Made by a program: the position numbers and the translations under genes
Source of the DNA: an uncultured Clostridia bacterium
GTDB lineage: Bacteria; Bacillota; Clostridia; Christensenellales; Borkfalkiaceae
Length of the DNA stretch: 44,587 nt
Direction: 5' to 3'
Assembly: GCA_947245485.1 (NCBI GenBank)
Contig: CAMXOH010000004.1
Coordinates: 1 to 44,587 of the forward strand
The notes under the pieces: model-generated
Databases searched by the model: none
The model's input: the letters and a program-made list of their open reading frames with translations, nothing else
Told to the model about the DNA's origin: nothing
Part shown: positions 14,821-36,040 of the stretch, in pieces
Layout: each line of letters begins with the position of its first letter
How positions within the stretch are numbered: position 1 is the stretch's first letter

Positions 14821-14835
14821 TTCGGATATAATAGC

Positions 14836-14868: not shown

Positions 14869-14876
14869 TTAATTTG

Positions 14877-17800
14877 TTATTTGTTGCCGTTATAGTCGTC
14901 ATAGAAGCCGTCGATGTCGTAAAAATCGTTACCGCTATCGATTATAGTCTGCGCGGGGGGAACGTTTTTCGTCTTATCGACGCGCGTCGTGGTAGTCGTA
15001 GTGGTAGTCATTACCGAATCGGGCGGACAATCGGGCGTAGACGGAGCGGTAACAGGCTGAGGCTGTTGCGCGTATCTGTAATTAGACGCGTCCGCTTCAA
15101 TCACTTTCTTTTTTTTTACAGGTTCTTCCTGCACGCCCGTATTTATGATTATGGGTTGAACCTGCGGCGAAGGCAACTGCTGCGCCTGAGGCTGTACGGG
15201 GGGTACGGGTTGCCCGTAAGGGTTCATTCCATAAGGCTGCCCGTAAGGATTCATTCCGTAAGGCTGCCCGTAAGGGTTCATTCCGTAAGGCTGATTGTAA
15301 GGATTTTGCTGATTCTGATTGGAATTCTGGTCCGCGCGCATTCTGATAAATTCGTTCGCCATCTTCATAGCGCTCGCTTCCTGCGCCGCCTGCATCTTAA
15401 CCGCGGCTATTTCCTGCTGCGCGCGGCTCGCTTCCTGCGCGGCGCGTTGGTTTGCCGCCGCTATTTCCGCCTGCGCACGGTTTGCTTCCTGCGCGGCGCG
15501 CTGGTCTGCGCGCATCTTTTCAAGCTCTACTTCCATCTTCATCATTGCAAGATTTCCGTTGTCCTGCTGTTGCTGTTGCATAGGCATTCCGTATGGAGGC
15601 ATACCGTACGGGTTCATTCCGTAAGGGGGCATACCGTACGGGTTCATTCCGTAAGGTTGCGGCGCCTGCTGGTGAGCGGCAAATTCGGCTTTCATACGCG
15701 CTATTTCCGCTTCCGCGCGCGCCTTTTCTATTTCTTGCTGAGCCTGCATTCTGAGGCGCTCGGCTTCGAGTTCCGCGCGCGCCTTTGCAAGCTCTATTTC
15801 TACTTTGGCTTTTATAAGCTCGTTATTGTCCGCCTGAATCTGCGTATTCGCGGGCGACGATGCGATTTGCGCTTTGAGCCGCTGAATTTCGGCTTCCGCG
15901 CGCGCCCTTTCGATTTCCTGCTGAGCCTGCGCCCTTGCGCGCTCTGCTTCCATTTCCGCTCTTACGCGGGCAAGCTCTATTTCTACCTGTGCCCTTATAA
16001 GGTCGCTGTTGTCTTTGCCCTGCGACGTAGGGGTTGATGCAAATGCGTCTGCTCTCATTTTCGCTATCTCCGCTTCGGCTTTTACTTTGTCGATTTCAGC
16101 TTGCGCTTGCGCTTTTACGCGCTCGGCTTCCATTTGCGCTCTTGCCATTGCAAGCTCGGCGTCGACTTTCGCCTTTATAAGTTCCGCGCTGTCCTGAGAA
16201 GTTTCGGCAGGTTTAGAAGCAAGCGCTTCCGCTTTGAGCCGCGCTATTTCCGCTTCCGCTTTCATTCGTTCGATTTCCGACTGAGCCTGTGCTTTTGCGC
16301 GTTCCGCTTCCATTTCCGCCCTCGCTTTTGCAAGCTCGGCTTCCACCCTCGCCCTTATAACTTCGTCGTTATCCACGGGTTGAGGCTGTACGCCCGCCTG
16401 CTGTTGCATACTTGCGCGCGCCGCTTCGAGTTCCGCCTTGACTTTTGCAAGTTCGGCATCCGCTTTCGCGCGCTCTATATCGTTCTTAGCCTGAGCTTTC
16501 GCAAGCTCTGCTTCCATTTGCGCCTTTACAAGCGCCGAATTGTCAAACTGCGGTGCGTGCTGTTGCATAGCCTGCTGTTGCATAGCTTGCTGACTGCGTG
16601 CCGCGTCGAGTTCCGCTTTGATTTTCGCAAGTTCCGCGTCCGCTCTCGCGCGCTCTACGTCGCTCTTAGCCTGAGCTTTCGCAAGTTCTGCTTCTACTTT
16701 CGCTTTTACAAGCGCCTCGGTATCCTGCTGTGCGGGTTGCTGTGCCGCCTGCTGTTGCATACTCGCGCGCGCCGCGTCGAGTTCCGCTTTGATTTTCGCA
16801 AGCTCCGCGTCGGCTCTCGCGCGTTCAACTTCGTTCTTAGCCTGCGCTTTTGCGAGCTCCGCCTCGACTTTCGCTTTTACGAGCGCTTCGGTATCCTGCT
16901 GTGCGGGTTGCTGTGCCGCCTGCTGTTGCATGCTTGCGCGCGCCGCGTCGAGTTCCGCTTTTATTTTCGCAAGCTCCGCATCCGCTCTCGCGCGTTCGAC
17001 TTCGCTCTTAGCCTGCGCTTTCGCGAGTTCCGCTTCGACTTTGGCTTTGACGAGCGCTTCGGTATCCTGCTGTGCGGGTTGTTGCGCCGCCTGCGGCTGA
17101 GGTGTACTGCGCGCCGCCGCGACTTCCGCTTTGAGTTTTGCTATTTCGGCTTCTGCGGTTATTCTGTTGATTTCCGCCTGCGCCGCCGCTTTACTGCGCT
17201 CCGCTTCCATTTCCGCTCTTGCTTTTGCGAGTTCGGCTTCTACCTGCGCTTTTACAAGCGCGGAGTTATCGAACTGCGGCTGAACCTGAACGGGGTTCGC
17301 GGCGATTTGCGCTTTAAGCCGCTGAATTTCGGCTTCCGACTTCGCCTTGTCTATTTCCTGCTGAGCCTGAACTTTTGCGCGTTCCGCCTGCATTTCCGCG
17401 CGTGCGCGGGCAACCTCCCTTTCTATGCGCGCCCTGACTTCGTTGGGGTCCGCCTGCTGTCCTTCGGGTTTGGTTGCCATTGCCTGTTGAGCTTTGAGCC
17501 TTGCGATTTCGGCTTCCGCTCTCGCTCTCTCTATTTCCTGCTGTGCCTGCGCTCTTGCGCGTTCGGCTTCCATTTCCGCGCGGGCGCGGGCGAGTTCCGC
17601 CTCTACCTGCGCTTTTACAAGGTCTCCATTGTCCGCTTTTGCCGGTTGCGCCGCCATTGCCTGCGCTTTGAGCCTTGCGATTTCCGCTTCGGCTTTCGCT
17701 CTCTCTATTTCCTGCTGTGCCTTCGCCTTTGCGCGTTCAGCTTCCATTTCGGCGCGGGCGCGGGCGAGTTCCGCCTCTACCTGCGCTTTTACAAGCGCGC

Positions 17801-19517
17801 CGCTGTCGGTATGAGCCGCCGCTTGGGGTTGACTGCGCGCCGCTTCGAGCTCGGCTTTAATTCTTGCAAGTTCCGCGTCGGCTTTCGCTCGTTCTATTTC
17901 GTTCTTTGCCTGCGCCTTTGCGAGTTCCGCTTCCATCTGCGCTTTGACGAGCGCGGAATTGTCGAACTGCGGGTGCATAGGCTGACGGCTTCGCGCCGCA
18001 AGCTCCGCTCTGATTTTCGCAAGTTCGGCGTCCGCCCTTGCGCGTTCGATTTCGTTCTTTGCCTGCGCCTTTGCGAGTTCCGCTTCCATCTGCGCCTTGA
18101 TAAGCGCGGAATTGTCGGATTGGGGCGCGGGTACAGCGTTCTGCTGATTGCGCGCCGCTTCGAGTTCGGCTTTGATTCTCGCGAGTTCGGCATCCGCTTT
18201 CGCGCGTTCAATATCGTTCTTAGCCTGCGCTTTTGCAAATTCGGCTTCCATCTGCGCCTTTATGAGCGCGGAATTGTCAACCTGCGGCGCGCGGGGTTGC
18301 ATAGCCTGCTGACGCGCGGCAAGCATTGCGTTGAGCCTTGCGATTTCCGCTTCGGCTTTCGCGCGCTGTTTGTCGTTTTTAGCCTGCTCCGCCGCAAGTT
18401 CCGCCCTGTGTCTTTCTTCGAGAATGCGCTGACGCTCCGCTTCGAGCTGTCTTGACTGCATAACCGCGCTGTTGTCCGCGTGAACCGCGGGCTGTTGCGC
18501 CGCCAACTGCGCCGCTTGCTGTGCGCGGGCGAGTTCGGATTTAATTCTTTCGAGTTCCGCGTCCGCCTTTGCGCGTTCGATTTCGTTCTTTGCCTGCGTC
18601 TTCGCAAGCTCCGCTTCCATCTGCGCCTTTATGAGCGCGGAATTGTCAACCTGCGGTTGCTGAACTACGGGTTGGCGGTTGCGCGCTGCAAGCATTGCGT
18701 TGAGCCTTGCGATTTCCGCTTCGGCTTTCGCGCGCTGTTTGTCGTTTTTGGCTTGTTCCGCCGCCATTTCCGCTCTGTGTCTTTCTTCGAGAATGCGCTG
18801 ACGCTCCGCCTCTTCCTTTCTACGCGCCGCTTCGTCTTTCTTGGAAAGTTTGGGGTCTGCCGCAAGAGGGGTTGCAGGAGGAACTTCGCCGCGCGCCCTG
18901 TCTTTGCGGTTTGCTTTTTCCGCGCGCGCCGCTTCTTCGCGGAGTCTGCGTATTTCGGCTTCCGCGCGCGCTCTGTCGCGCTCGTTGCGGGCGTTGGCTT
19001 TTGCGAGTTCGGCTTCTACCTGCGCCTTGATAAGCGCGGAGTTATCGGGAGCTTCATGATGAACGACTTTCTTTTCGTTCGCTTCCGCTCTTGCTTTTGC
19101 TATTTCGGCGTCTGCGCGAGCGCGCTCGACTTCCATCTGCGCCTGTGAACGTATGCGTTCGGTTTCGGCTTGCGCCTCCGCCCTCGCCTTTGCTATCTCC
19201 GCGTCGGCTTTGGCGCGCGCAAGCTCGCTGTTATCCTTTTTGACGACTACGCGGGTTCTTTCTTTGACGCGCGTTTTCGTCTTAGCTCCTCGGGGCGCGG
19301 GACGGCGTCCCTTAGGCGGACGGCGCTTTTGGGGCGGGCGTCTCTTTGCCTTGGGCGGATGCGCGTGCGGGTTTTGCGCCCTCTTCTTTTTTATTTTCTT
19401 CGTATAAGTCGCTACGATTAAGAGAACTATAATCAGAAATACCGCGAATACAGCCGCCGCAATTATAACATACGACCAAGGCACGTTATCTGCTATTAAT
19501 TGTTTTATCTTATCCAT
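14877..19517 (-). CDS. Membrane-anchored giant helical-repeat (coiled-coil) protein, partner of surface protein A
   Basis: A 1546-residue protein, not matched to any named family. Residues 1-15 are short and polar, 16-37 are one membrane helix. Residues 40-94 are extremely basic (25 Lys/Arg, one acidic residue; RRPPQKRRPPKGRR-type), which by the positive-inside rule puts the rest in the cytoplasm. Residues about 95-1290 are Ala/Glu/Lys/Arg-rich helical repeats of 45-57 residues with the core KAQMEAELAKAQAKNEIERA, superficially like the TolA stalk. Then follow two low-complexity blocks of MNPYG/MPPYG and NPYGQPYG units, a Gln/Pro-rich stretch, a run of eight Thr, and an acidic Tyr-rich end (DFYDIDGFYDDYNGNK). 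The start is clear: AAGGAG sits 9 bases before ATG and overlaps the stop of the surface gene, with only 13 bp between genes, so translation is likely coupled. A scaffold role under the membrane, bound to the tail of its neighbour, is inference. Confidence 0.9.
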   Translation of the reverse strand: MDKIKQLIADNVPWSYVIIAAAVFAVFLIIVLLIVATYTKKIKKKRAQNPHAHPPKAKRRPPQKRRPPKGRRPAPRGAKTKTRVKERTRVVVKKDNSELARAKADAEIAKARAEAQAETERIRSQAQMEVERARADAEIAKARAEANEKKVVHHEAPDNSALIKAQVEAELAKANARNERDRARAEAEIRRLREEAARAEKANRKDRARGEVPPATPLAADPKLSKKDEAARRKEEAERQRILEERHRAEMAAEQAKNDKQRAKAEAEIARLNAMLAARNRQPVVQQPQVDNSALIKAQMEAELAKTQAKNEIERAKADAELERIKSELARAQQAAQLAAQQPAVHADNSAVMQSRQLEAERQRILEERHRAELAAEQAKNDKQRAKAEAEIARLNAMLAARQQAMQPRAPQVDNSALIKAQMEAEFAKAQAKNDIERAKADAELARIKAELEAARNQQNAVPAPQSDNSALIKAQMEAELAKAQAKNEIERARADAELAKIRAELAARSRQPMHPQFDNSALVKAQMEAELAKAQAKNEIERAKADAELARIKAELEAARSQPQAAAHTDSGALVKAQVEAELARARAEMEAERAKAKAQQEIERAKAEAEIARLKAQAMAAQPAKADNGDLVKAQVEAELARARAEMEAERARAQAQQEIERARAEAEIARLKAQQAMATKPEGQQADPNEVRARIEREVARARAEMQAERAKVQAQQEIDKAKSEAEIQRLKAQIAANPVQVQPQFDNSALVKAQVEAELAKARAEMEAERSKAAAQAEINRITAEAEIAKLKAEVAAARSTPQPQAAQQPAQQDTEALVKAKVEAELAKAQAKSEVERARADAELAKIKAELDAARASMQQQAAQQPAQQDTEALVKAKVEAELAKAQAKNEVERARADAELAKIKAELDAARASMQQQAAQQPAQQDTEALVKAKVEAELAKAQAKSDVERARADAELAKIKAELDAARSQQAMQQQAMQQHAPQFDNSALVKAQMEAELAKAQAKNDIERAKADAELAKVKAELEAARASMQQQAGVQPQPVDNDEVIRARVEAELAKARAEMEAERAKAQAQSEIERMKAEAEIARLKAEALASKPAETSQDSAELIKAKVDAELAMARAQMEAERVKAQAQAEIDKVKAEAEIAKMRADAFASTPTSQGKDNSDLIRAQVEIELARVRAEMEAERARAQAQQEIERARAEAEIQRLKAQIASSPANTQIQADNNELIKAKVEIELAKARAELEAERLRMQAQQEIEKARAEAEIARMKAEFAAHQQAPQPYGMNPYGMPPYGMNPYGMPPYGMPMQQQQQDNGNLAMMKMEVELEKMRADQRAAQEANRAQAEIAAANQRAAQEASRAQQEIAAVKMQAAQEASAMKMANEFIRMRADQNSNQNQQNPYNQPYGMNPYGQPYGMNPYGQPYGMNPYGQPVPPVQPQAQQLPSPQVQPIIINTGVQEEPVKKKKVIEADASNYRYAQQPQPVTAPSTPDCPPDSVMTTTTTTTTRVDKTKNVPPAQTIIDSGNDFYDIDGFYDDYNGNK
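15195..15310 (-). repeat. NPYGQPYGM low-complexity coding repeat
   Basis: The coding sequence repeats a 24-bp unit for MNPYGQPY three to four times near the C terminus of the 1546-residue protein. Tyr/Gly/Gln/Pro-rich tracts like this are usually disordered. Confidence 0.8.
15585..15660 (-). repeat. MNPYGMPPYG low-complexity coding repeat
   Basis: Two copies of MNPYGMPPYG followed by MPMQQQQQ lie in the 1546-residue protein, between two helical blocks. The DNA repeats are recent enough to be nearly identical (ccgtacgggttcattccgta occurs twice on the plus strand). Confidence 0.8.
15661..19235 (-). repeat. Long array of degenerate helical coding repeats (45-57 residues per unit)
   Basis: About 3.5 kb of the 1546-residue gene is made of units built on EAELAKA(Q/R)A...EIERA(K/R)A(D/E)AE(L/I)A(K/R)(I/L)KAE. 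The units are separated by short linkers, many with DNSALIKAQ. One type carries SAVMQSRQLEAERQRILEERHRAE and occurs in two or three places. Such arrays vary in length by recombination. Confidence 0.85.
16580..17095 (-). repeat. Near-identical 171-bp (57-residue) tandem repeats
   Basis: The plus-strand sequence tatcctgctgtgcgggttg occurs at 16721, 16892 and 17063, exactly 171 bp apart. The 57 residues between (TEALVKAKVEAELAKAQAK to MQQQAAQQPAQQD) differ at only one or two positions. The third unit is incomplete and switches to SQQAMQQQAMQQH. These are the youngest duplications in the array. Confidence 0.9.
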
Positions 19518-19530
19518 AGTTTATCACTCC

Positions 19531-22500
19531 TTAATATTCGTCGTCGTATTCGTCATAATCGTCGTATTCATCGTAATCGTCGTATTCGTCATAACCGTCG
19601 TCGTAATATTCATCGTCGTCGTAATAATACGTTGCGTTGCGCCTTCTGATTGCTATTACTATAACGAGTACGAGGAAGAGCAATACCACAAACGAAATTA
19701 CCGCGATTGTAATTATCAGCGTTAAGCTGAGTCCTTTCTTCTCAGGCGATACGTATTTGACTATATACGTATTGTTCGTGATTTCGTTTCTTACTTCTTC
19801 GTAGTTTTCAATACTCTTATTGAACTCTTCTTCGTTCTTTTCGGTGTACTTGACTTCGTATTCCTTGCCCTCTTCGGGGTTTGTTACTTCCTCCTTGGTT
19901 ACAGGGTCATAATAATGAATATCAAAGAAATCGTCGATATCGACTTCTTCACCGTCTTTGTTAACCGCGTGGGGTTTGCCGTCTTCGCCTATGCTCAAAG
20001 TCAGATGCGCTTTCTTGATTTCGAAATGAAGAGTATAGGTGTCGCCCTCGAATCCGTTCCAGCTGTCCTTCGAAGGATTCTTTATCTTGAACGTAAGCGT
20101 GTACTTGCCTACCGCTTTCTGCGTGAGGTGTTCTTCGCCTTCGAGAATGGATACAAACTGTTTGAGCATATCCCAGTTGCTTATGACGAAAGTAATTCCT
20201 CTGCCCGTAAACTCCCTTTCCAGGAAAGTGAGCGTGGGAAGCGCGAGTTTCTGCGGTTCGTCGGGGTTGATTACAGGCGCTTTCACCTCGAAAGGAAGCG
20301 AAATCGATTCCGTGCCGCCGCCTACCCAGGTTGCGCTTACTCCGTCCTTGAAAGTGATAACCAGGGTGTATTTGCCTACCGCCGTTACTTTTATAACGCC
20401 GTCTTCAATGGTTACGTTTGCGTTATCGCAAGAAATTTCGAGATAGTTCTTGTAAATCGTATCCCACGCCGAGAGCTTGAATTCGAGTTCTCCGCCCGTG
20501 TAAGTCTGTTCGCCCGCAACGAAAGAAGGTTTTTCGAGCTCGACGTCAATTCCCGCGCCGGGAGTAATTACAACGGTAAACGTGTATTCTTTGCTGAGGT
20601 CTGCAAAAGTATAATCCAAACCGCTCTTTATTCTTGCAACGATTGTATACGAGCCTACGTTGGTAGCCGTTATCGTTCCGCCGGAAATGGTCACGCCGGA
20701 GTTACTGCAAACAAGTTCTATATAACGGTTGTAGTAGCTTTCCCAGTTGTTTACGTTGAACTGTAACGCTTCGCCGGTGTATTCAGCAGTAACTTTATCG
20801 AGCGTGGGATTGAGTATGACGTTCGATTTGTTGTTGGGGTCTACGATTTCAAGCTGTAACTCGTACTCGCTGTCGTCGTTGCTGACTTTCCAATAACCGG
20901 AAACTTCTCCGCCCGTTTTGAACGTGAATTTAATTGTATAAATACCCGCCGTCACAAATTCGAGTTCGATATTTTTGCCGAGACTCGTACCTGCGTAGAA
21001 TACTTCGTAATCGAGGTACTCGTTGAGAACCATCCAGTTAGTAATCTTGAATTCGATTGGCGAACCCGTATAATCCGTGCTGTACTGGTTGAATACGGGA
21101 TATTCGAGCGCAACCCTCGTGGGTCTTGTAACTGTAAATTTGAGATAAATCGTATCTCTGTTTCCGTCGGTGCCTATCCAGTAAGCATCCGCTTCCCTTT
21201 TAAAACTCAACGCTATAAAGTAATCGCCTATTTCGGTAGCGTAAGCCTCGCCCCTGGTATTGTCGAAATCTTCGCCGTCGGAAATATAGAGGTAATTCTC
21301 ATACTGCTGATACCAACGCTCGATGAAGAAACTGAGCTTATCGCCCGTGTATTCCTGTCTGCCTTCGTTTTCGAATACGGGTTTTTCAAGCTGAACCGAC
21401 GCGGGTCCCGGCGTGAACTTGTATGAAACGAATTTAATTTTATCGAGCGCGCCGTCCGCCATTTCAAATGAAATATTCTTGGAATATTTTTCCGAAACCT
21501 GCGGCTGTGCGTAGAAGGTCACTCCGTCCGTTGTCTTGATATAGTCGAGTTTAACTATACCGCCGTTTTCGTTGGTGTATATGGTTTCGATGATGTCCGA
21601 AATGTATACGCCTCTGACTCTTGCCGCGGGAACCGTACCGTTGGTATCCCATACGACGGAAAGAACCTGCTTATCAACCGTTATGTCGATACGCGCGAAG
21701 AATATATTTGTCTCGACGCCGTCGATTTCCATTATCTGCGAGAAGTCGATAGTATATGCGCCCGCGTGATAACCGAAGTATTTGCCGCCGAAATTTTCGC
21801 CTTCGGGGTCGTTGCCGAAATATTGGCTTCCGTCGTAATTCTTGGTAATATTGTTTTCCGTATCTTTGAACGTAATATCGATATGGAAATAGAACAGCTC
21901 GTCTTCGGGCATATTGCACAGCTCTAAAAGGTTGTGCGGCTTATCGTCGAATTGCGTCCAGTTGTCGTTATAGAAAGGACGCGTAAGTTCTCTTTCCTCG
22001 ATTTCCCAGAATACGAAAGACGATATTGTGGACGGGAAGTTTGCAACCGCGTTATGGTTTGCGTCGCCCGCATAACCGGAGAACGTAAATCTCGTATGAT
22101 AGGTATCTATTGCCGAATACGAATTGCCCTCGGTTTCCGTGCCGCTTGTCGACGTCTGCGGAGTCGTAAAATATTTTACGCCCGATTTGAGATACTCGGG
22201 AAGATTAATCAGTCCTACGGTATACTTGTATTCGCGGCTGGAATCGCCGTCCGCGACTCTGGTATATACGAACGACTCCTCGTCGAAATCGAACTCGTGT
22301 TCGTTTCCGTCCTCGTCTATATAACCCCATTTCACGTTATCGAAACTTATATCCGCTTTTGCGATTTCCCAACTTACCGTAAGAGGGAATTCGGGGTCGT
22401 TATAGTTGTCGGACCAGGTGTAGTTAACGGATATCTGATAGCTGCCCGCCGTAACGCCCGTTAAACCGCGTATATCCGAAATATTGATTATGCTTGCGTA

Positions 22501-26319: not shown

Positions 26320-26332
26320 TATATTTCTCCAA

Positions 26333-26388
26333 AACCGTGCGGTACGCGAAGATTAAGTAAAAAAATTAAATAATATTTCCGTACGGTT
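26333..26388 (-). promoter_or_regulatory. Inverted repeat in the leader of the pair A operon
   Basis: AACCGTGCGG at 26333-26342 and CCGTACGGTT at 26379-26388 can pair in 9 of 10 positions across an AT-rich loop. The stem ends a few bases before the ribosome site of the gene at 26319. It could be a leader hairpin that affects translation or stability, or an operator; neither is shown. Confidence 0.4.
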
Positions 26389-26431
26389 AAAAAAGGGCAT
26401 AATAAGACACTATCCCTATTTTGGTTATATT

Positions 26432-26460
26432 ATTATAGCATTTAGAATTTATATTTTCAA
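26432..26460 (-). promoter_or_regulatory. Sigma-A promoter of the pair A operon
   Basis: TTGAAA (26455-26460 on the minus strand) and TATAAT (26432-26437) with a 17-bp spacer, and an AT-rich region upstream. Transcription should start near 26425, giving a leader of about 105 bases. Confidence 0.8.
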
Positions 26461-26670
26461 GCCTTTTTGACAAAATTTTTATATTAGTATTAATATGTCC
26501 CCATTACCACAATATATTGTGTTTTGCCTGATTTTTGCGCCCGAAAGTTCGTTGAAATTAAGTTTTTTTGTAGTTTTTGTTCTTTTGCAAAGGTAAAATT
26601 TCACATAACGCCAAAAATTGGCACTTGTAAACCGTACCGAAAACAGCGTGTGTGACAATAAAAAGGCAAT
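26461..26670. other. AT-rich intergenic stretch with two small palindromes
   Basis: No gene is supported here. A perfect 14-bp palindrome CACAATATATTGTG lies at 26508-26521, about 48 bp upstream of the pair A -35 box. A GCCAA-AAA-TTGGC inverted repeat lies at 26610-26622. Either might bind a dimeric regulator. In AT-rich DNA the first could also be chance. Confidence 0.35.
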
Positions 26671-26703
26671 TAAAAACCGAACCCTTTTACGAGTTCGGTT
26701 TTA
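26671..26703 (-). terminator. Rho-independent terminator after the pair B operon
   Basis: A 10-bp stem AAAACCGAAC / GTTCGGTTTT with a 10-base loop starts 7 bases past the stop at 26710. It runs into TTTTTA on the minus strand. Confidence 0.85.
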
Positions 26704-26709
26704 TGTTTT

Positions 26710-27210
26710 TTACTTATTTTCGGCGTCTTTTGCGCTCTCGGGCGCTTGCGCCGCCTTTGAAGGATTTACTGGCGCCGCGGGGCGTCTTACCGCGGGACGG
26801 GGCGCGTTCTGCGCTGCCGCCGCGTTGGGTGTTTTCGCCGCGCCCGCCGCTTTGGGTGCGGGTTGGGGTTTTGCCGCCGCTTTGGGCGCCGATGACGCCG
26901 ACGGAGTATCGCCGCCGTCCGCAAGCTCGTCGATGAGTTTTTCAGCCGCCGCTACCTCGCGGAGTTTTGCCATAAGGCTATCCATAACCTCAACGTTGCC
27001 CTTGTTGTTCATAATTTCCATTGTAAGCTCTGCTTCGCGTCTGCCGAGCAAGGCTTTCGCATAGGAAACGTCCTCGATAGCAACGTCTTTTTTAACGGGT
27101 CTGAGCGCGATAAAGAGAATTAACGCGAATAATCCCGTAACTACAATCATGACCACGAGCAGACCGATAAACCAGCCGTATGCGGGTGATAATAATAACG
27201 CGTTTGACAT
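26710..27210 (-). CDS. Pair B partner: small membrane protein with coiled coil and Ala/Pro-rich tail
   Basis: A 166-residue protein. Residues 12-36 are one membrane helix after the uncharged start ALLLSPAYGWF. RPVKK follows, which predicts a cytoplasmic C terminus. Residues 45-97 are an amphipathic helix or coiled coil (RREAELTMEIMNNKGNVEV) and 98-166 a disordered Ala/Pro/Lys tail. The first about 95 residues are clearly homologous to the 292-residue partner at 32796-33674 (shared AYGWF-GLL, AL-P-K, LL--R--ELT-E--NNK). I know of no family name. The ATG lies 3 bp after the stop of the surface gene. Its ribosome site AGGAGG is inside that gene, coding for the two Arg near the tail's end, so translation is almost certainly coupled. 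It probably pairs with the surface protein's cytoplasmic tail (inference). Confidence 0.9.
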   Translation of the reverse strand: MSNALLLSPAYGWFIGLLVVMIVVTGLFALILFIALRPVKKDVAIEDVSYAKALLGRREAELTMEIMNNKGNVEVMDSLMAKLREVAAAEKLIDELADGGDTPSASSAPKAAAKPQPAPKAAGAAKTPNAAAAQNAPRPAVRRPAAPVNPSKAAQAPESAKDAENK

Positions 27211-27213
27211 ATA

Positions 27214-30200
27214 TTATTTCCTCCTCAATTCCGACTTAATCATTTTACGGAATTCTTCTTCGATTTTCTTGTTTCTGAGAATAAGCAGTACTACTCCGCC
27301 GATTGCAAGTCCGATTGCTACGACTGCAAATACCGCGGTTGCGGCAATGATACCCGTCATACCGACGGAATCTTCGAATACCGCGAACGTGGATTCGCCT
27401 ATAAGTTCCGCGTAGTTGCCCGTTCCCTCTACTCTCGCTACCAATACGTAAGAACCTACGCCGAGCGAATTGAGGTTTTTAATATCCAATGCGTTTTTAT
27501 GTTCCTTATCGGACGCGCTGTATACTTCGAATACTACCGTGCCGTATTTAGCCTGCGCGGTGAGCGCGTTTCCCTTGGAATCCCAATTTCCCTGACTCCA
27601 ACTCTTAACTCCGGGAACTCCGTCCTCTTTCCACGCGTTCTTTGCAGGTGTTACGCTGAACGAAAGGTATGTGTCGAGGTCCGAATAGTTCGCGTCGCCT
27701 TGCAGGTGAGCGCGGAACTGGTACTCGCCTACTTCGAGCTCGTTGTTTCTGTCAAGCCAGTCTGCGGGAATTTCCGTAACCCAGCTGCTGTAACTGTTGC
27801 GGTAGTAGTAAATAACCGAATTCTTGTTGCCGAAATGAGGCTGGCAGTTGATTGTTATATCACGGGTTGCGTAATCGCCGTATACCCAGTCGTGAACGGT
27901 TGGAGTAATATCCCAATAGTTGTTTACTTGGAGTACGGAGAAGTTAATTGCGTATTCCCACTCAGCGTAGTTGCCGTTTTCGTCGAGGCCGTATACGTAT
28001 ACGTAACTTCCCGCGGGCACTTCGCCGTTGCTGTCGAGCATCTCGTTTATAGTGGGCCAAGCCGTCATATCTTCCTTGCTCATTCCGCCTTCGAGATAAG
28101 CCTTATAGTGCGCAAGCGTCGTGATGAAGCTCTTTACGTCGGAAGCGAGCGACGCGAATCCGCCCGAAAGTTCGAGAACGGGCGCTTTGTACATCGTTTC
28201 GAAATCGCCGTACTTCCAGCTTTCGATAAACGGAGTATTGTCGAGCGTCGCGTTGGATTTTGCGATTATTATCGAACGTTCTTCCGTGTATGTATTCCAG
28301 TTATAACCCTTTCCGCCGACAACCGTAGCGATGAGTTTGTATTCGCCTGCGTCCGCTTTGTCGAAACCTTGTTGGTTTCCGACAGGTTTGTAGTGATATA
28401 CAAGGCTTGCGTTCTTAACCGACTGCAAGGTGTATGTATACAGTTCTTCACTGCCGAACGCGGTTCCCCAACGGATTTCGAACTCCGACTGTTTACCCCA
28501 CTCCCAATCTCTGAGATATAGAGGTATAGTAGTGCTGTTGTCGGCGCGTTCGATTGCGAACGTGAATTTTATGAATCCCTGTCCTTCGGAAGTATCTACC
28601 GCCGCGTTCTTCCAGCCGTAGCTGTCGGCGAAATTTTCTCTGAAAGTGAGCGCTACAAATACTTCGTCGGAAGCGTTCGTATAATTCTGCAATTTGCCGT
28701 CGCGGCAGTAAAGAGCAGTAGCTCTGCGCGTTTCAACGTCGTTCAAAGGAGCCGAACCGTCAAGGTACAGTATCTTGAATATATCGCTGTTTGCAAACCT
28801 TACGGGTTCTCCGGTATATTTAGCCGCGCCGAGGTTTAAAGTAGCAACGTCGATATAGTGTTTGATATATAAGGTGTAGTAGTAACCTTTTCTTACGGAC
28901 TCGCTGTTAATATTGACGAGATTCGTATAGTTGTTCGCGGTTACGTTAAGGTAAACGGTATATCTGCCTGCGGCGTTGGGACCGTTCACGTAATTTTCCG
29001 CCGTATAATACGTGTTGCCGCTCAAACTGCCGTTCTTAGCCGACTCAACGTTATACTGCATTGTCAATCTGCCGTAATATTTGTCGTACTGCGGCTTTGC
29101 CCAGATACCCTTGCGCTCGCCCTGAATGGTTTCTTCGTTGAGTTTGAGAGCTGGTACGCCTGCCGTGCTTGCAAACTGCACTATGCCGGGCATATATTCG
29201 ACTTCGAACGAAGGTTTAACCGCCATATTGTTATAGAGGTTGCCCCATAAATCGTTTGTGCCGCTAATCTTGCCTTCCGATTTAAGTCTTCTTACAAGTT
29301 CTTCTATGCCGCATTCCTTAACTTCGAAAGTCCAGCTTACGCCGTTTTCGCCGTTACCCGGCACGTCTTTGTAATCCGCAATATAAATCGTAAGCGTATA
29401 AACGCTTGCAGGCATAGATGAGTTTATTATCTCTCCGTACATAGCATAGTTATAAACATTGGGAGCTTCCGTACCGAAGATAAGTTCGTTCTCGATTGTG
29501 AAAGTTATAAGCTGTTCTTCCATACCGTGGGTAACGGATGAAGAGAGAACAGGTTTGCCGGGCGCCTTACCGCCATAAGTCCAACCGTCGGTTAAATCGT
29601 AAATACCGCCGTTATCTCCGTCGATAAGCTGGGACGCGTCGGAAGTAACTATGTACCATACTTTTTCCACTACGTATTCGTAGCCTTCCGCCGTGCGCGT
29701 TTCGGATATTTTGATGCCGTAAGGATTATCCTGGGGAGTTACGTATTTTAATCTGTAATTGTTACCCGCAATGAACGTTGCCTTTGCCGTGTAAACGCCT
29801 GCGCTTGTTGCCTTTACGCCGACGCTTACGCCGTTTTCGCCGGTAACGATGCTACTGTTATCGTCAGCCGTGTAACTCTTAATGGCTGTGAGATAATCCG
29901 AACCCACCAAAAGCTCGATAGACCAACCTTTATTGTTATACATAAGAGAGGAAGCCGAAACGTTCACAATCTTAGGCGTTCCGAGGTCGGGATTATCCTG
30001 TTCCTGTAAATAGGGAGTATTTCCGTAGATATACAGTTTCTGTCCACCGGTAAGAGGATTTCCGCCGATAACGCCCCAATTCAGTATATCTGTAAGATTA
30101 TTTTCAGTGTTCAAGTCGAGCATAACGGGTTCGACAGTATAATCTTTCTGAATATACTGCGCCGCGTCAACCGCATTGACGTCCCATTTGCCGTATTTTG

Positions 30201-32541
30201 CGTTGAGGTTTACTCTTATTATATAAGTACCCGCATTCTGCAACTTTTCAGGCAATTCGTCTGCTTTTCCCGCTACCGGCGTATATCCCGCTATTTCCAC
30301 GGCATATCTTTCGCCGTACTGCGAAGAATTGAGTTTTCCTTCTGCGTCTTCCCAGGAATCGGCTTTAATCGCGCCCATGGGAGTGTTGGGCGAATTGGGA
30401 GTTATTACGCCATTGGCAAGTTCGAATCTCAAATCTTTGTAATCGTAGTAACGCGCATAAAGAGTTATAATACCATACTCTTTAAGCATCTCGTTCAGCT
30501 CGGTGGCAGTTACAACGCCCTCTCCTACCGTAATTTCGCCATCACTATACCAAACCGATTTCGAATAGCCGTGCTGTACGGGCATACCCGCTTCGGCGTT
30601 TTTCGTCCAGACGTTGTCGTTTTTCGTATATGTATAATCGAGACCGAAGAGTTTATATTCTATATGGTGTTCGCCCGCAGTATCGCTTTCCACTTTATAA
30701 TCGCCGTAAACGAGATATACGGGAACTTCGAACGTAAGCGTTCCGTATGTATTCCACACAGATACTTTGCTGTAATTATCATACGACTCGTTGGAAGGAG
30801 CGATAAGCAAACGGTTATTTTTCGTATCGGTATCGAATAAGCCGCTTACGTCATAGTTTGAAAGAGATTTCGAAAGATAAACTATGGAGAGCTTGGTACA
30901 GCCTTTGAATACGTCCGCACCGAAAGACGTTACGCCTTCGGGAATTTCAAACACTTCAAGGGAGTTACAGTTTAAGAAAGCCTGCGCGTCCATAGTTTTA
31001 AGTCTTGAATCGTCCGTAAATTGAACGGTTTTAAGGCTCGAACAACCTGCAAAAGTCTGCTGTCCGATTTTCGTAACCGATTTGGGAATATTAATAGAAA
31101 TAAGCGAAGAACAACCGTTAAACGCATAGTCGGAAAGGGTTGAAGTCGAAATTGTTTCGGCAAAAACCACTTCCGTCAATGCGGTACATCCCGCGAAAGC
31201 GTATTGATTAATTTCGATAACGTTGGAAGGTATCTTAACGGAAGTTATGTTGTTTTTGTTGAAAAACGCTCTGTTATAGATATTGTAGTTGAAACCGGTA
31301 GGAAGTTCCAGACGCGTCGCCGTGCCCGTGTAGCCTATTAAAAGCTGGGGATTTGCGCTGTTGTCGTTATAGAAAATATAGTCGCCGTTCTCGGATAAAC
31401 GGGTACTTTCGCCGTTGCCGCCGTTATAGACGTACTTCACGGCGTTCTGCGAAAATACCGAAACCGCTACGTCGCCGTTAGCGCCGTTATTTGAAATTGC
31501 GTTCTGTCCCGCAACTATATTCAAATTAGAACGGTTGTCTATTTCTACAAGCCTGAGACAGCCGAGGAAAGCGTTTGAACCTATTGAACTTACGTTTTGG
31601 GGAACAGTAATTTTGTAAAGCGAAACGCACTGATAGAAAGCGTTTTCGCCTATCGTCGTAAGGTTCGACAAATCGCCGAGATTAATTTCGGCAAGCGAAG
31701 AGCAGCCGTTAAAAACGCCCGTGCCTATTGTCGTTATAGAACAGCTTTCGAAATTTACTTTCGTAAGGTATTTACAATCCGCAAATATCGAATCTTTAAA
31801 TCCGTTTTCCGTAAGAGTAACGTTATTAATCTTTACTTCCTTTATATTGGTTCTGTTAAATAAAGAAGTAGGTATATAAGTAATTTTTGCGGAACTGTTG
31901 CCTATATAAACTTTTACGTTGTTGGAAGCGTTCAACCCCGCAAAAGGACTTTCCGATACGGGATTACAGTCAAGAGCGTTATAACGTATCTCTTTAAGCG
32001 AAGATGCGTTGGAGAACGCGCCGTTAGCGAGCGTTTTTACGTGTCCGGGAATAGTAACGTTTTCAAGCGCGCCGCAATTTGCGAATGCGAACGACCTGAT
32101 ATGCAAAAATTCCCCGTTCACAGAATGGCTTGTGGGCAGAATAAGAGTTTTTAAGTTGGAACAGCCGTCAAAAGCGTTCGAACCGATTTCTTTTAAAGCC
32201 GCGGAAGTGCTGAATCTTACTTCTGTAAGCTGTTTCTTGTTGAGAAAAGCCTTCGAAGCAATAGATTCAACCGTCGCGGGTATAACCATAGAAAAGTTAT
32301 TTTCGCCTATTTTCGTAAGCGCGGTTTCCGAAAGTCCTGTAATTACAGTCTTTTTGTCGTTGTCGGAATAAGTAAAACTGTCCGCCCCGCTGATTTCGAC
32401 GACGGGAGTTTCCGCCGCATAAGCGGGCGGAGTTTGTGCGAACGTGCGGACGGGTACCGCAAACAAAATGCCTGCCGAAAGGCATACCGCAGCCACCGAC
32501 GCAAGAAGCGCAAACATAATCTTTTTTCTTAAACTTGTCAT
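27214..32541 (-). CDS. Pair B surface protein: BspA-like leucine-rich repeats, Ig-like modules, membrane anchor
   Basis: A 1775-residue type I membrane protein. Residues 1-35 are the signal peptide. Residues about 60-595 are BspA/LRR_5-type repeats (IGSNAFDGCSNLKTLILP, TIGENAFYQCVSLYKITVP), a family often involved in binding host or matrix proteins. About 600-700 is a degenerate InlB-like segment ending in TLYARYYDY. About 700-1390 are MBG/YDG-like modules. About 1390-1725 are four modules with W-x-G-x-x-x near their start (NYWDITPTVHDWVYGDY), as in the pair C surface protein. EDSVGMTG leads into the membrane helix (about 1730-1755), followed by the charged tail RNKKIEEEFRKMIKSELRRK. No LPXTG. 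A longer frame starts 27 bp upstream at 32568, but AAGGAG six bases before the ATG at 32541, and the signal peptide right after it, decide for the shorter form. The partner gene follows after 3 bp. Confidence 0.93.
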   Translation of the reverse strand: MTSLRKKIMFALLASVAAVCLSAGILFAVPVRTFAQTPPAYAAETPVVEISGADSFTYSDNDKKTVITGLSETALTKIGENNFSMVIPATVESIASKAFLNKKQLTEVRFSTSAALKEIGSNAFDGCSNLKTLILPTSHSVNGEFLHIRSFAFANCGALENVTIPGHVKTLANGAFSNASSLKEIRYNALDCNPVSESPFAGLNASNNVKVYIGNSSAKITYIPTSLFNRTNIKEVKINNVTLTENGFKDSIFADCKYLTKVNFESCSITTIGTGVFNGCSSLAEINLGDLSNLTTIGENAFYQCVSLYKITVPQNVSSIGSNAFLGCLRLVEIDNRSNLNIVAGQNAISNNGANGDVAVSVFSQNAVKYVYNGGNGESTRLSENGDYIFYNDNSANPQLLIGYTGTATRLELPTGFNYNIYNRAFFNKNNITSVKIPSNVIEINQYAFAGCTALTEVVFAETISTSTLSDYAFNGCSSLISINIPKSVTKIGQQTFAGCSSLKTVQFTDDSRLKTMDAQAFLNCNSLEVFEIPEGVTSFGADVFKGCTKLSIVYLSKSLSNYDVSGLFDTDTKNNRLLIAPSNESYDNYSKVSVWNTYGTLTFEVPVYLVYGDYKVESDTAGEHHIEYKLFGLDYTYTKNDNVWTKNAEAGMPVQHGYSKSVWYSDGEITVGEGVVTATELNEMLKEYGIITLYARYYDYKDLRFELANGVITPNSPNTPMGAIKADSWEDAEGKLNSSQYGERYAVEIAGYTPVAGKADELPEKLQNAGTYIIRVNLNAKYGKWDVNAVDAAQYIQKDYTVEPVMLDLNTENNLTDILNWGVIGGNPLTGGQKLYIYGNTPYLQEQDNPDLGTPKIVNVSASSLMYNNKGWSIELLVGSDYLTAIKSYTADDNSSIVTGENGVSVGVKATSAGVYTAKATFIAGNNYRLKYVTPQDNPYGIKISETRTAEGYEYVVEKVWYIVTSDASQLIDGDNGGIYDLTDGWTYGGKAPGKPVLSSSVTHGMEEQLITFTIENELIFGTEAPNVYNYAMYGEIINSSMPASVYTLTIYIADYKDVPGNGENGVSWTFEVKECGIEELVRRLKSEGKISGTNDLWGNLYNNMAVKPSFEVEYMPGIVQFASTAGVPALKLNEETIQGERKGIWAKPQYDKYYGRLTMQYNVESAKNGSLSGNTYYTAENYVNGPNAAGRYTVYLNVTANNYTNLVNINSESVRKGYYYTLYIKHYIDVATLNLGAAKYTGEPVRFANSDIFKILYLDGSAPLNDVETRRATALYCRDGKLQNYTNASDEVFVALTFRENFADSYGWKNAAVDTSEGQGFIKFTFAIERADNSTTIPLYLRDWEWGKQSEFEIRWGTAFGSEELYTYTLQSVKNASLVYHYKPVGNQQGFDKADAGEYKLIATVVGGKGYNWNTYTEERSIIIAKSNATLDNTPFIESWKYGDFETMYKAPVLELSGGFASLASDVKSFITTLAHYKAYLEGGMSKEDMTAWPTINEMLDSNGEVPAGSYVYVYGLDENGNYAEWEYAINFSVLQVNNYWDITPTVHDWVYGDYATRDITINCQPHFGNKNSVIYYYRNSYSSWVTEIPADWLDRNNELEVGEYQFRAHLQGDANYSDLDTYLSFSVTPAKNAWKEDGVPGVKSWSQGNWDSKGNALTAQAKYGTVVFEVYSASDKEHKNALDIKNLNSLGVGSYVLVARVEGTGNYAELIGESTFAVFEDSVGMTGIIAATAVFAVVAIGLAIGGVVLLILRNKKIEEEFRKMIKSELRRK

Positions 32542-32630
32542 AATTGACTCCTTAAAGATTTTTTCCATGCGATAATCGTAATAATTCCCGCAAAAGGCAA
32601 TTATCCAATATAAACATTATATCATTCAAG

Positions 32631-32659
32631 ATTATACAATATATAAAGTAACTTGTAAA
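32631..32659 (-). promoter_or_regulatory. Sigma-A promoter of the pair B operon
   Basis: TTTACA (32654-32659 on the minus strand) and TATAAT (32631-32636) with a 17-bp spacer. The leader to the ATG at 32541 is about 83 bases, AT-rich, without a strong stem. Confidence 0.8.
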
Positions 32660-32737
32660 GTATTTATTTTGGAAATTTTTTGTAAATAGCGCAAAAAAAG
32701 CGGAACATTTTTCCGCGGCGACGAATAGCGGTTTATA

Positions 32738-32773
32738 AAAAATCACCCGCCGTCCGAAACTCGGACGGCGGGT
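32738..32773 (-). terminator. Rho-independent terminator after the pair C operon
   Basis: A perfect 13-bp GC-rich stem (ACCCGCCGTCCGA and its complement, 3-base loop) lies about 22 bases past the stop at 32796. On the minus strand it is followed by ATTTTTTATA. Confidence 0.92.
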
Positions 32774-32795
32774 TGAATTTATTTTCAGGTTTATT

Positions 32796-33674
32796 TTATT
32801 GTTTTTTTGCAAGTCCTTTCGCCACAAGCGCATCGTCGTCCTCATAGGGGAGCGCGTAAATCGAGTGGTTCGTCTTTACGTACAATACGCCGTAATCCGA
32901 CATAAGAAGCGCAATAAGTTCCTTCGCAAGTTTAACTCCTTTCTCGTTTCTTATACGGAACAGACAGGGCGTAACCTGTTTAAACGCTTCCGACTGCGAC
33001 GCTTTTACGGGGAACCTGCCCGCGTATTCCTGCGGTTCGAGCGCAAGATACAGACAGAGTACTTTACCGCGCATCGTCAGCGTTGCCGCATTGTTCTTAC
33101 CAACGTAGAACTTTTCGTAGTTCCAGTGCATTCTCGCTTTGGTCTTTTCGTAACAGAGCAGACAGTTTTTAAGTTCGAAATACCAGACTTTTACGTCGTC
33201 GCCCGCCTGCATCAATTTAGCGGTAAAACTCTTTTTAATTCCGTCCTCGCCCGCAGCAGGCGCGGCTTCGCCGAAAGTATGTTCGATTGCCTGCTTCTCT
33301 CCTTTTTCAAGGCTCTCCTCTTCCGCTGCGGTCAGTCCGCTGTCCACGCCGTAAGTCTTTTTCGCGGAAACGCCGAGTTCCTTTGCGAGAAGTTCGGATA
33401 CTATTTTCTGCGCTGTCGAAACGTCGCGGAGTTCCTGTTCGGCTTTTTCAGCCGCTTCCTTGTTTTCCTTATTGTTAAGAAGTTCGATAGTAAGCTCGGT
33501 CTGACGCTTTTCCAAAAGTTTCTGTGCGAGCTGTTCGGGAACGTTATCGTCCATCTTTATGGGTTTAAGCGCAAAAAGCACTATAAACACGAACAATACC
33601 GCCATAATCAGCATAATAGCCAAAAGTCCCGCAAACCAGCCGTAAGCCGACGAAATCAATAATGCCGTTCTCAT
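32796..33674 (-). CDS. Pair C partner: membrane coiled-coil protein with an extra C-terminal domain
   Basis: A 292-residue protein. Residues 12-36 are a membrane helix after ALLISSAYGWF; KPIK follows, so the rest should be cytoplasmic. Residues 45-100 are a coiled coil (RQTELTIELLNNKENKEAAE) homologous to the 166-residue partner at 26710-27210. Residues 100-147 are a linker. Residues about 148-265 are a globular domain (SFTAKLMQ, YFELKNCLLCYEKTKARMHW, TMRGKVLCLYLALEP, TPCLFRIRNEKGVKLAKELI). I recall this pattern from uncharacterised Clostridia proteins but cannot name the family. The ATG overlaps the TGA of the surface gene (ATGA), with GGAGGT just upstream inside that gene, so translation is coupled. 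The extra domain may be an effector, and the short partner at 26710 lacks it; both points about function are inference. Confidence 0.92.
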   Translation of the reverse strand: MRTALLISSAYGWFAGLLAIMLIMAVLFVFIVLFALKPIKMDDNVPEQLAQKLLEKRQTELTIELLNNKENKEAAEKAEQELRDVSTAQKIVSELLAKELGVSAKKTYGVDSGLTAAEEESLEKGEKQAIEHTFGEAAPAAGEDGIKKSFTAKLMQAGDDVKVWYFELKNCLLCYEKTKARMHWNYEKFYVGKNNAATLTMRGKVLCLYLALEPQEYAGRFPVKASQSEAFKQVTPCLFRIRNEKGVKLAKELIALLMSDYGVLYVKTNHSIYALPYEDDDALVAKGLAKKQ

Positions 33675-36040
33675 TTGTTACCTCCGTGCAGTTCTTTGTG
33701 AACCATCTGGCGGAACCGCTGTTCTATTTTTCTTCTTCTGATAATCATAAGAGTTATGCACACGCCTGCGGCGATTGCGTCAAGCGCCGCGAACGCGATT
33801 GTTACGCCGATTATTCCGCTGAGCGAAACCGAGTCTTCCATTACGGAGAACTGGATTTCGCCGTTGAGCGCCGAGTAATTGCCCGTTTCCGCTACCGCAA
33901 AAGTTACTCTGTAAATACCAACCCCGAGTTTGGAGATTTTATCATAGTCCAGCTGTGTTTTGTTTTGGTTGGAAGTTACGACTTTGCCGTCCGAATCATA
34001 GACGATTACGGTCATCGTATCGTTGCCGTAAGCCGCGTTAGCCGTAATCTTGTTCGAGTCGGAAAACCGTCCTTCGTTCCAGCTAAGCACTTTGGGAATT
34101 TCCGCCCAACTGTTGGCAACCTTTGTAATCTCGAACCTTATGCCGTGTTCCTTTATGTCTTCAGCCGAAGTGTACTCGTTGAGTCCCGTATAGTTGTCTC
34201 CGCCCTTGACGGTTGCAAGCATATAGTAAGTTCCCGCCGCAAGTCCGCCGAGTCTTTTTTCCACGTATGCGGGGACGGTAAGGGAATTTTCTTCCTCTAT
34301 AAGATTAAACGAAGTTACCGTATTTTCTCCGTTCACGAAACCGACGGGCATACCGTCCGAGTCATAGACGGATATATCCGCGGCACCGCCGAGCGCGGGA
34401 ACCGCCGAAATGAGATTTACGTTTTTATTGTAACCGCCGTACGCCCAGCCGAACGCCGAAGGGGTCTCCGTCCAGTAGTTACGCGATTTGAGTACGCTGA
34501 ACCGAACCGCCGTCTGCGTTTCGAGCATAGCGAAGTTAGGCGTTGAACCCGCATTACCCGCCTGTTCCGCGCGCGCATACAGGTAATATGTATTTGCGGG
34601 CAGACTGCCGAGTTTTGCGGCTATATCTGCGTTTACTTCCGTGAAGTTTTCAAGTCCTTCAACCGCGTTTTTGTGAGCGGCGTCCTTATAGATGCCGAAC
34701 GTTACCGAGCCGTTGGAATATCTTGGAACGGCTGAGATTACGTTCACTTCGGGTTCGTATTCGCCGTATCTCCACTGCACGATGTTGGGAGTGGTAGTCC
34801 AGTTATTGCGCGTCGTATGGATAGTGAAAGAAATTACGGACGATAAATCCGAATAATTCGCGCTCTCGTCGCGCGTCTCCGCTTCGAGGTAGTAAGTACC
34901 CGCGTCGAGTTTCGATATAATCTCCGCCATTTCCTCGGTTACTGCCGTAAAGTTTTCGAGAAGTCCCGTATCGTCGAGGGGAATCCTGCACGCCCTGTCC
35001 TTATACAGTCCGTACGCAACCACCGCGTTTTTCGCAGGGTATGCGGGAACCGCAGAAATCACGTTTACTTCCGCGTCGTATTCGCCCCACGTCCACTGTA
35101 CTATGTTGGGAGCCGTTGTCCAATGGTTCTGAACCTGTCTTACGGTAAACTGCACGCGGGTGTCGAGCGCGTCGTAGTTTTCCGTACCCGCCACGTATGC
35201 GCGGAGATAGTAATTGCCCGCGTCAAGCGAAGCAAGCGCCTCTGCGGCAGTCTGTTCCGCCGCGCCGTTCGCCATCAATCCGTTGACGGTGTAGAAACGG
35301 GAAAGGCGGGAATCCGCGAAACTTGCGCCCGCATAAACGGTAAATTCAACCTTTTCCCCCTCGCCGAAAAATGCGGGGACAGCGGAAATGAGGTTATAGC
35401 TTTGGCGGTATTCGTTCCAGTTCCAAGGGATAATGTAAGGTGAAACAGTCCATCTGTTTTCGCCTTTCAATACGTTGAAAGTATATCCGTTGTTGGGGTC
35501 TACGCCGTTGCCGAGTCCCGTAGCTCCGTCCGTTTCCGAAACGAAAGGAATGAGCGAGTAAACGCCGTAATCGAGAGTTTTAAGTTTTGCAATTACCTGT
35601 TCGGGCATATTTCCGTCTTCGTCAAGCGCGAACAAGCCTTTATTCTTTTCGGTATTAGAACCGCCGACGGGCAAACCTTCGTAATCGTCGAAAAGTATTT
35701 CTTTGTCGATTTTGTTTCCTTTTCCGTCAGTCAGGTGCCAGAGCATAAATTTAAGCGTTTCGTTGCCGTAAGCCGCCTTACCCGAAATTCTGTTTATTGC
35801 GGGGTCGAATTCGCCCCACTTCCAGCTTACGAGGTTGGGCGTTATCTCCCAATAATTTTCCGCCTTTTCGGGAGCGGGTTCGGTAGGTTCTTCCGCTTCG
35901 TCCACGCGCGGCAAAGCCGCGTCGTCAGCATAGACTGAATGCGAAGTGAATAGCCAAAGTCCGAAAACAAGGCAAACGGAAAGGAGCGCGGCAAGTACCG
36001 CGGCGATTTTTCCGCCGACCGTAAAAGATTTCTTTCTCAT
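33671..36040 (-). CDS. Pair C surface protein: six Trp-rich Ig-like modules, membrane anchor, basic tail
   Basis: A 789-residue type I membrane protein. The signal peptide is residues 1-38 (cleavage after VYA). Then come six modules of 90-130 residues. Each starts N-x-W-x-x-x-P...W-x-(W/Y)-GE(Y/F), then N-(V/L)ISAVP, then LDAGTYYL-A-V and NY-x-L...F-V. They occupy the whole outside part. EDSVSLSG precedes the membrane helix (742-767); the tail is RRRKIEQRFRQMVHKELHGGNK. The last module, helix and tail align with the pair B surface protein, so the two are paralogues that differ in what they carry at the tip. There is no LRR head and no LPXTG signal here. The start has AAGGAG 8-9 bases before ATG. 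The role outside the cell cannot be read from sequence; a short stalk or receptor is plausible. Confidence 0.92.
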   Translation of the reverse strand: MRKKSFTVGGKIAAVLAALLSVCLVFGLWLFTSHSVYADDAALPRVDEAEEPTEPAPEKAENYWEITPNLVSWKWGEFDPAINRISGKAAYGNETLKFMLWHLTDGKGNKIDKEILFDDYEGLPVGGSNTEKNKGLFALDEDGNMPEQVIAKLKTLDYGVYSLIPFVSETDGATGLGNGVDPNNGYTFNVLKGENRWTVSPYIIPWNWNEYRQSYNLISAVPAFFGEGEKVEFTVYAGASFADSRLSRFYTVNGLMANGAAEQTAAEALASLDAGNYYLRAYVAGTENYDALDTRVQFTVRQVQNHWTTAPNIVQWTWGEYDAEVNVISAVPAYPAKNAVVAYGLYKDRACRIPLDDTGLLENFTAVTEEMAEIISKLDAGTYYLEAETRDESANYSDLSSVISFTIHTTRNNWTTTPNIVQWRYGEYEPEVNVISAVPRYSNGSVTFGIYKDAAHKNAVEGLENFTEVNADIAAKLGSLPANTYYLYARAEQAGNAGSTPNFAMLETQTAVRFSVLKSRNYWTETPSAFGWAYGGYNKNVNLISAVPALGGAADISVYDSDGMPVGFVNGENTVTSFNLIEEENSLTVPAYVEKRLGGLAAGTYYMLATVKGGDNYTGLNEYTSAEDIKEHGIRFEITKVANSWAEIPKVLSWNEGRFSDSNKITANAAYGNDTMTVIVYDSDGKVVTSNQNKTQLDYDKISKLGVGIYRVTFAVAETGNYSALNGEIQFSVMEDSVSLSGIIGVTIAFAALDAIAAGVCITLMIIRRRKIEQRFRQMVHKELHGGNK

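Follow-up and report, generated by a model that had tools for sequence, protein, structure and literature searches.

Bacterial surface proteins are usually seen as passive anchors in the wall or the membrane. Among the described systems that come closest to the locus considered here, csc clusters encode parts that are all extracellular (WxL, DUF916 and LPXTG proteins), and RsgI-type polysaccharide sensors are one-chain proteins with an N-terminal anti-sigma domain. The window that we analysed (the whole stretch of 44,587 nucleotides, which is one entire contig, C4, of a Borkfalkiaceae genome of 1.87 Mb in 173 contigs, 95.9% complete) carries its main genes on the minus strand. A sequence-only reading had proposed that one two-gene plan occurs in it three times over, a first gene for a surface protein (S) being followed directly by a second gene for a membrane partner (P).

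The S proteins resemble LPXTG/sortase proteins in their signal peptide, long repeat ectodomain, C-terminal hydrophobic helix and charged tail, and differ from them in that no LPXTG-like motif is present, the family has no sortase match and there is a partner gene. Sortase (PF04203) was matched in none of 101 family genomes, nor in the window's own (0/1), with 3 of 14 controls positive; anchoring of the stalks in the membrane, perhaps among other ways, is therefore likely. With RsgI-type sensors the pairs would share a binding part outside, a single helix and an effector part inside, and no anti-sigma family was among the domain matches listed for the window partners. The csc clusters of Lactobacillus plantarum are similar in having adjacent genes for surface proteins that have been proposed to work as a complex (PMC1534035); no WxL, DUF916 or related family was among the domain matches listed for the window proteins. 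Among the papers listed by our search of the open-licence literature, with narrow terms, none looked like an account of this two-gene plan and, since none of the known systems considered shares it, we rate it as apparently new, a rating that rests on limited literature and on a putative contact between S and P.

Layout of the three gene pairs

The two-gene plan is borne out three times over, from 36040 to 14877 on the minus strand. All six frames are open; the S/P junctions are a 4-bp overlap in pair 1 and spacings of +3 bp in pair 2 and +13 bp in pair 3, with ribosome-site-like GGAGG, GAGGAGG and AAGGAG, respectively. A hydropathy scan (19-residue window, mean of at least 1.7) finds two hydrophobic segments in each S protein, one N-terminal and the other C-terminal, and a single one in each P protein, at residues 17-35. 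As had been noted, the S proteins (P0001, P0003 and P0005) have no LPXTG-like motif within their last 120 residues, and they have no PEP-CTERM-like motif there either.

Each pair had also been credited with a promoter and a terminator of its own, which agrees with our analysis in part. The best minus-strand promoter consensus matches, at 36161, 32659 and 26460 (11/12 each), lie in front of the three pairs (promoter-like sites 36132..36161, 32631..32659 and 26432..26460), and promoter-like sites number 36 overall against 19.6 in shuffles, and also 14 against 6.9; a further one at 14415 (12/12) lies ahead of the gene following pair 3. Hairpins picked by eye follow all three pairs on the minus strand: at 32738..32780 after pair 1 (stem 32745-32773; -28.1 kcal/mol, z -6.2), at 26668..26704 after pair 2 (a 12-bp stem and then a T run, absent from the pattern-scan list; -16.6 kcal/mol, z -5.6) and at 14830..14872 after pair 3 (14-bp palindrome arms 14839-14867; -20.2 kcal/mol, z -5.2). 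The pattern scan for terminators itself showed no excess over shuffles (33 vs 33.1; 15 vs 14.4) and, in the three intergenic stretches, placed minus-strand terminators only after pair 1.

In pair 1 the S protein, P0001 (33671..36040, minus strand; 789 aa), has a signal-like segment at residues 12-30, six repeats that start N.W...P (residues 62, 195, 305, 412, 521 and 643) and a membrane helix at 748-766 (33743-33799), followed by a 23-residue basic tail. Its ectodomain may be of beta-sandwich type, to judge by its appearance and by weak matches to Wzt_C (29.1 bits, under the cut-off of 30.4) and to Por_Secre_tail (27.7, above the NCBIfam cut-off of 23; 19.6 with the Pfam model, below cut-off). 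The partner, P0002 (32796..33674, minus strand; 292 aa), has its membrane helix at residues 17-35 (33570-33626) and, at residues 147-292 (32799-33236), a domain that we call DUF5655-like. P0002 had no Pfam match by ordinary hmmscan, none by sequence search of the PDB and none at 1e-5 in plasmid and phage collections. An AlphaFold2 model of P0002 built from four sequences was set aside (pLDDT 43.5).

Pair 2 is homologous to pair 1 in its membrane parts. Its S protein, P0003 (27214..32541, minus strand; 1775 aa, or 1784 aa if the start is the ATG at 32568), carries a BspA-type LRR_5 region, a C-terminal membrane helix (27277-27333) and a basic tail homologous to that of P0001. Its partner, P0004 (26710..27210, minus strand; 166 aa), has an N-terminal helix at residues 17-35 (27106-27162) and is 44% identical to P0002 over residues 1-96; it lacks the DUF5655-like domain and has a Pro/Ala-rich tail instead.

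Pair 3 belongs to a different class. P0005 (19531..26319, minus strand; 2262 aa), with a DUF6273 match at residues 315-404 and a membrane helix at 2205-2223 (19651-19707), ends in an acidic Tyr/Asp tail (3 basic residues, 19 acidic, 12 Tyr), and in P0006 (14877..19517, minus strand; 1546 aa; helix at residues 17-35, 19413-19469) the 60 residues behind the helix are Pro-rich, with 25 basic residues and 2 acidic. This charge pattern is kept in three orthologous pairs, in which the basic/acidic counts of S tail and P stretch are 3/18 with 24/3, 3/12 with 22/4 and 3/13 with 22/5; the same stretch in 19 domain-carrying partners of other pairs has a net charge of -14 to +2. The body of P0006 consists of about 20 modules free of Pro and Gly and rich in Ala, Glu, Lys, Arg and Gln, mostly of 47-64 residues, and by this composition it is probably helical. 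The sequence-only reading had called the second proteins helical or coiled-coil; when a heptad was looked for in P0006 no peak appeared, and the coiled coil is not upheld there. The orthologues of P0006 are shorter (1313, 1249 and 1181 aa), and its Tyr/Asp-rich C terminus, NDFYDIDGFYDDYNGNK, is conserved among them. Our guess is that pair 3 forms a rod or lattice beneath the membrane, held by charges.

The cluster is flanked by a gene for a Flg_new-repeat protein (44371-40061), next to which lies one for a pectate lyase with a CBM77 pectin-binding module (40002-36268); in the related loci L006, L007 and L008 (L-numbers denote fetched loci) the pectate lyase place is taken by a different gene, by length and sequence. 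Downstream of pair 3, from 14283 onward, runs a giant surface-type gene (14283-1738, minus strand; 4181 aa so far) which is broken, similar sequence continuing in another frame at 1558-2. Its counterpart in the relative L170 has an uninterrupted frame of 4678 aa or more, to which the two pieces from the window align in order, among other repeat matches. The break may be a sequencing error or genuine.

Recurrence of the pairs and covariation of their membrane segments

The pairs are found again, in the same arrangement, in other Clostridia MAGs (L006, L007 and L008, the last being the same contig as G053:C11, classed in the same genus as the window). Pair 2 lies directly behind pair 1 in all three, and pair 3 is found at L041-L042 with L006, at L044, a separate contig, with L007 and at L043 with L008; the gene plan is therefore not chance. 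Junction spacings for pairs 1, 2 and 3 are -4/+3/+13 in L006, +5/+3/+19 in L007 and +4/+3/+19 in L008. Identities in L006, L007 and L008 are 66, 39 and 40% for P0001 and 69, 61 and 59% for P0002. The window's own genome holds a further S/P pair on contig C7 (L009), with overlapping genes.

A check named beforehand was whether the two partner N termini always stand directly behind a surface gene, and they do in the four genomes with strong matches, at 8 of 8 places for the type shared by P0002 and P0004 (AYGWF type) and 4 of 4 for the 1546-residue type. Strong matches to the AYGWF-type N terminus came from G053 and the window's own genome, two out of 151 in the family, and also from the genomes of L006 and L007; these particular pairs are thus narrow in distribution. 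Ten other family genomes gave weak matches only (11 places). Regions from seven of these ten were fetched (L045-L052), and seven of the eight look unrelated by gene order and sequence. In the eighth, L051 (9253-16761; G064:C2), a surface gene with a C-terminal helix is followed by the DUF5655-like domain in other frames with an internal stop, which we would read as a frame-disrupted fusion or pair.

Among 21 non-orthologous pairs, one taken from each orthologous group, the similarity of the S membrane segment with its flanks follows that of the P membrane segment closely (Mantel r 0.86; 0 of 5000 permutations). Common descent of whole pairs could give much of this r, because the S segment also follows the ectodomain (r 0.84); when we controlled for the last 400 residues of the ectodomain and for the remainder of the partner, the partial r was 0.50 (0 of 5000 permutations). 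Between pairs 1 and 2 of the window the similarity is 0.43 for the S helix and 0.44 for the P helix, against 0.14 for the ectodomain and 0.09 for the partner body. By eye, the segments fall into several matched classes; in one of them (L086, L099, L155 and L159) the S tails are short and basic, and all except that of L099 end RRYKQC or RRYKEC, with a terminal Cys.

The DUF5655-like domain and its carriers

The domain at residues 147-292 of P0002, for which a model was built from seven sequences, recurs in the window's own genome in proteins on contigs C7, C15 and C20. It is present in 90 of 101 family genomes and, across the order, in 82 of 200 genomes, spanning 11 families; in the phylum sample it occurs in one of 398, the window's own. 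Among the Pfam and NCBIfam families shown for its 89 members, none was a clear match; the commonest weak one was F-93_WHD (5/89, best E 0.0042), and no PDB chain was matched by the 89-member profile or by nine DUF5655 sequences. Profile-profile comparison with DUF5655 (PF18899, 10 sequences; hhalign) gave a probability of 92.5 and an E of 4.9e-7 for one comparison over 106 of 147 columns; the score was 43.6, and 30 column shuffles gave no more than 16.1. We use the name DUF5655-like because this match covers most of the domain's length. PF18899 itself was over its cut-off neither for P0002 nor anywhere in its genome, and was not in the best 25 of the 36 families matched by the 89 members; kinship to YjbR/MmcQ is weak (score 23.7, probability 12.7; 60 column shuffles gave at most 17.3). 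In contrast to DUF5655, the P0002-type domain did not occur outside the order in the genomes sampled, and it is tied to membrane proteins. No paper naming DUF5655 was found in the open-licence literature with narrow terms.

How often are such carriers paired? In 67 loci (the window, L006-L011, L083-L122 and L150-L169), 41 single-helix carriers have enough sequence upstream to be judged, and 20 of these follow, at a distance of at most 100 bp, a frame of 400 aa or more that bears a C-terminal helix. The figure for the remaining frames of at least 90 aa there is 11 of 469, and five of these 11 are partners of pairs 2 and 3. Genes were taken here as the longest largely non-overlapping frames of at least 90 aa, some of them surely spurious, which may lower the base rate. 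As pair 1 is orthologous in the window, L006, L007 and L008, leaving out the last three gives 17 of 38. The loci are not a random sample: most are strong matches, comprising nearly all same-genus places in five genomes and then high-ranking places, and those from other families were picked by frames of about 270-780 aa, pairing not being looked at beforehand. L152 (132 bp) was scored as unpaired and L161 (an over-long start) as 'other', and both were taken as pairs for the covariation.

A surface gene directly upstream is thus no general rule for the P0002 domain, since 21 of the 41 single-helix carriers lack one. With these 21, and a further 14 carriers classed as soluble and 6 as other (5 more are cut by a contig end), the domain is not confined to such pairs. 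What was to refute the earlier reading, partners standing regularly without a surface gene upstream, is thus partly the case for the domain family and is not the case for the two N-terminal families (8/8, 4/4). The unpaired L087, L098 and L114, together with L116, share a helix class with paired partners (0.44-0.56); for the remaining 17 of 21 (the 20 unpaired without L152, plus L116) the helix-class score is at most 0.27.

In relatives the domain is also found behind the helix of the surface protein itself, so that there are forms with one chain as well as with two. We fetched twenty regions in which the domain sat in a long frame, not every listed long frame being included, and in 19 of them (the exception being L149) one frame holds a signal-like segment, a large ectodomain, a C-terminal helix and the domain; L102, met earlier, is an additional case. 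Because the order in these fusions is outside, membrane, domain, the domain is predicted to lie inside. In the giant L133, matches to MBG_2, Flg_new and Big_2 precede the helix, and a Pfam-level ribosomal L15/L18e domain follows the DUF5655-like domain. Two long carriers, L011 (1715 aa) and L083 (1389 aa), look soluble. Another open frame, 683-1151 aa long and with a hydrophobic segment in its C-terminal part, precedes eleven fusions (L135-L139, L141-L144, L147 and L102) by 142-351 bp and may be a different type of partner gene; in L140 this place is taken by a gene for a multi-helix protein.

Of the 99 distinct carriers that the fetched loci contain, 22 have a uL15/L18e-like tail, formed by the very C-terminal 70 residues or so (examples are L009, L084, L087, L089, L104, L106 and L130-L133, including giant fusions of 4143-5335 aa). 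All 22 are domain carriers, which does not imply that the tail is absent elsewhere, because it was mostly the domain that guided the choice of loci. PF00828 scores, against a cut-off of 21.5 bits, are 45.9 for the L009 partner, 41.4 for L089, 40.6 for L084 and 39.2 for the giant L133; P0002, P0004 and P0006 have no PF00828 match. Unlike free ribosomal uL15/L18e, the four scanned carriers are membrane proteins, with the tail behind the helix and the DUF5655-like domain.

Several helix-less carriers have another kind of neighbour. L011 (8394-13541, on C20 of the window's own genome), L088, L090, L097, L100 and L108 lie 0.5-3.0 kb downstream of a gene with a SpoIVA-like ending (GGVICILL or GGVICIIL), which in the window's own genome is identified as SpoIVA by matches to three Pfam domains; L110, a single-helix carrier, also has a SpoIVA-like neighbour. 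A link of the helix-less carriers to the spore envelope is possible.

Probable two-chain surface complexes and the alternatives

The sequence-only reading took S and P to form one unit across the membrane, and the natural fusions, together with the covariation of the membrane segments where the rest has diverged, support this indirectly. We consider it probable that the pairs encode split, two-chain transmembrane surface complexes. The S protein would be exported via its signal peptide and held by its C-terminal helix, with the long stalk outside; the P protein, made right after it, would span the membrane with its one N-terminal helix, the N end outside and the body inside. The S and P helices would recognise each other in the membrane, by which the stalk would gain a cytosolic body: the DUF5655-like domain in pair 1, a short, Pro/Ala-tailed segment in pair 2, and a very long, probably helical rod in pair 3. 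In pair 3 the basic stretch of P, close beneath the membrane, could also serve as a docking site for the acidic Tyr/Asp tail of S. That the partner body lies inside is predicted from this basic stretch and from the order of parts in the fusions. As neither P0004 nor P0006 has the domain, the case for pairs 2 and 3 rests on the gene plan, helices and charges; the labels given by the earlier reading, 'scaffold', 'ligand-binding' and 'coiled coil', are still inferences. The likely role of such complexes would be to hold, position and perhaps read out stalks from inside, in a lineage seemingly without a wall-tying sortase.

The close coupling of the genes and the matching of the helices would equally be expected if P were a dedicated helper for the export, membrane insertion or stability of S and no lasting subunit, and the small size of P0004 would suit such a task. 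We regard a helper as unlikely, as the domain is permanently fused to surface proteins elsewhere, and partners of the P0006 type reach 1546 aa with a conserved C terminus. That the two genes of a pair are no more than neighbours in an operon, the surface gene being co-expressed with a membrane gene that has nothing to do with it, gains something from the location of about half of the single-helix carriers elsewhere; set against the fusions, the covariation of the membrane segments and the conserved junctions, it seems to us highly improbable.

The pairs might also be signalling receptors, in which binding to the stalk alters the DUF5655-like or uL15-like part and so acts on RNA, ribosomes or gene expression. 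The distant kinship to DUF5655 and the uL15-like tail of the 22 carriers speak for this; no enzyme, kinase, anti-sigma or DNA-binding family is evident in the window partners, however, and these are also without the uL15 tail, pairs 2 and 3 lacking the domain as well, so that we hold signalling to be distinctly improbable. A wider proposal, which we offer as a doubtful one, is that the order (probably Christensenellales) has modular lock-and-key split receptors with matched helix classes, in which stalks and cytosolic bodies (DUF5655-like, uL15-like or long helical rods) would be interchangeable, in one chain or two, and some of which might link surface contact to RNA or translation via a tail derived from a ribosomal protein.

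For split two-chain complexes, as we prefer to read the pairs, the meaning would lie in how the cell surface is connected to the interior. A lineage without detectable sortase, in the one family checked, seems to give its surface stalks a cytosolic half, either fused to them or as a separate matched subunit, and to do so widely; these split and fused halves point to an undescribed wiring of the cell surface to the cell interior. The order-restricted DUF5655-like domain, partly with a ribosomal-protein-like tail, is named here as a family that can be tested, and this tail on some of the cytosolic parts is the most striking loose end.
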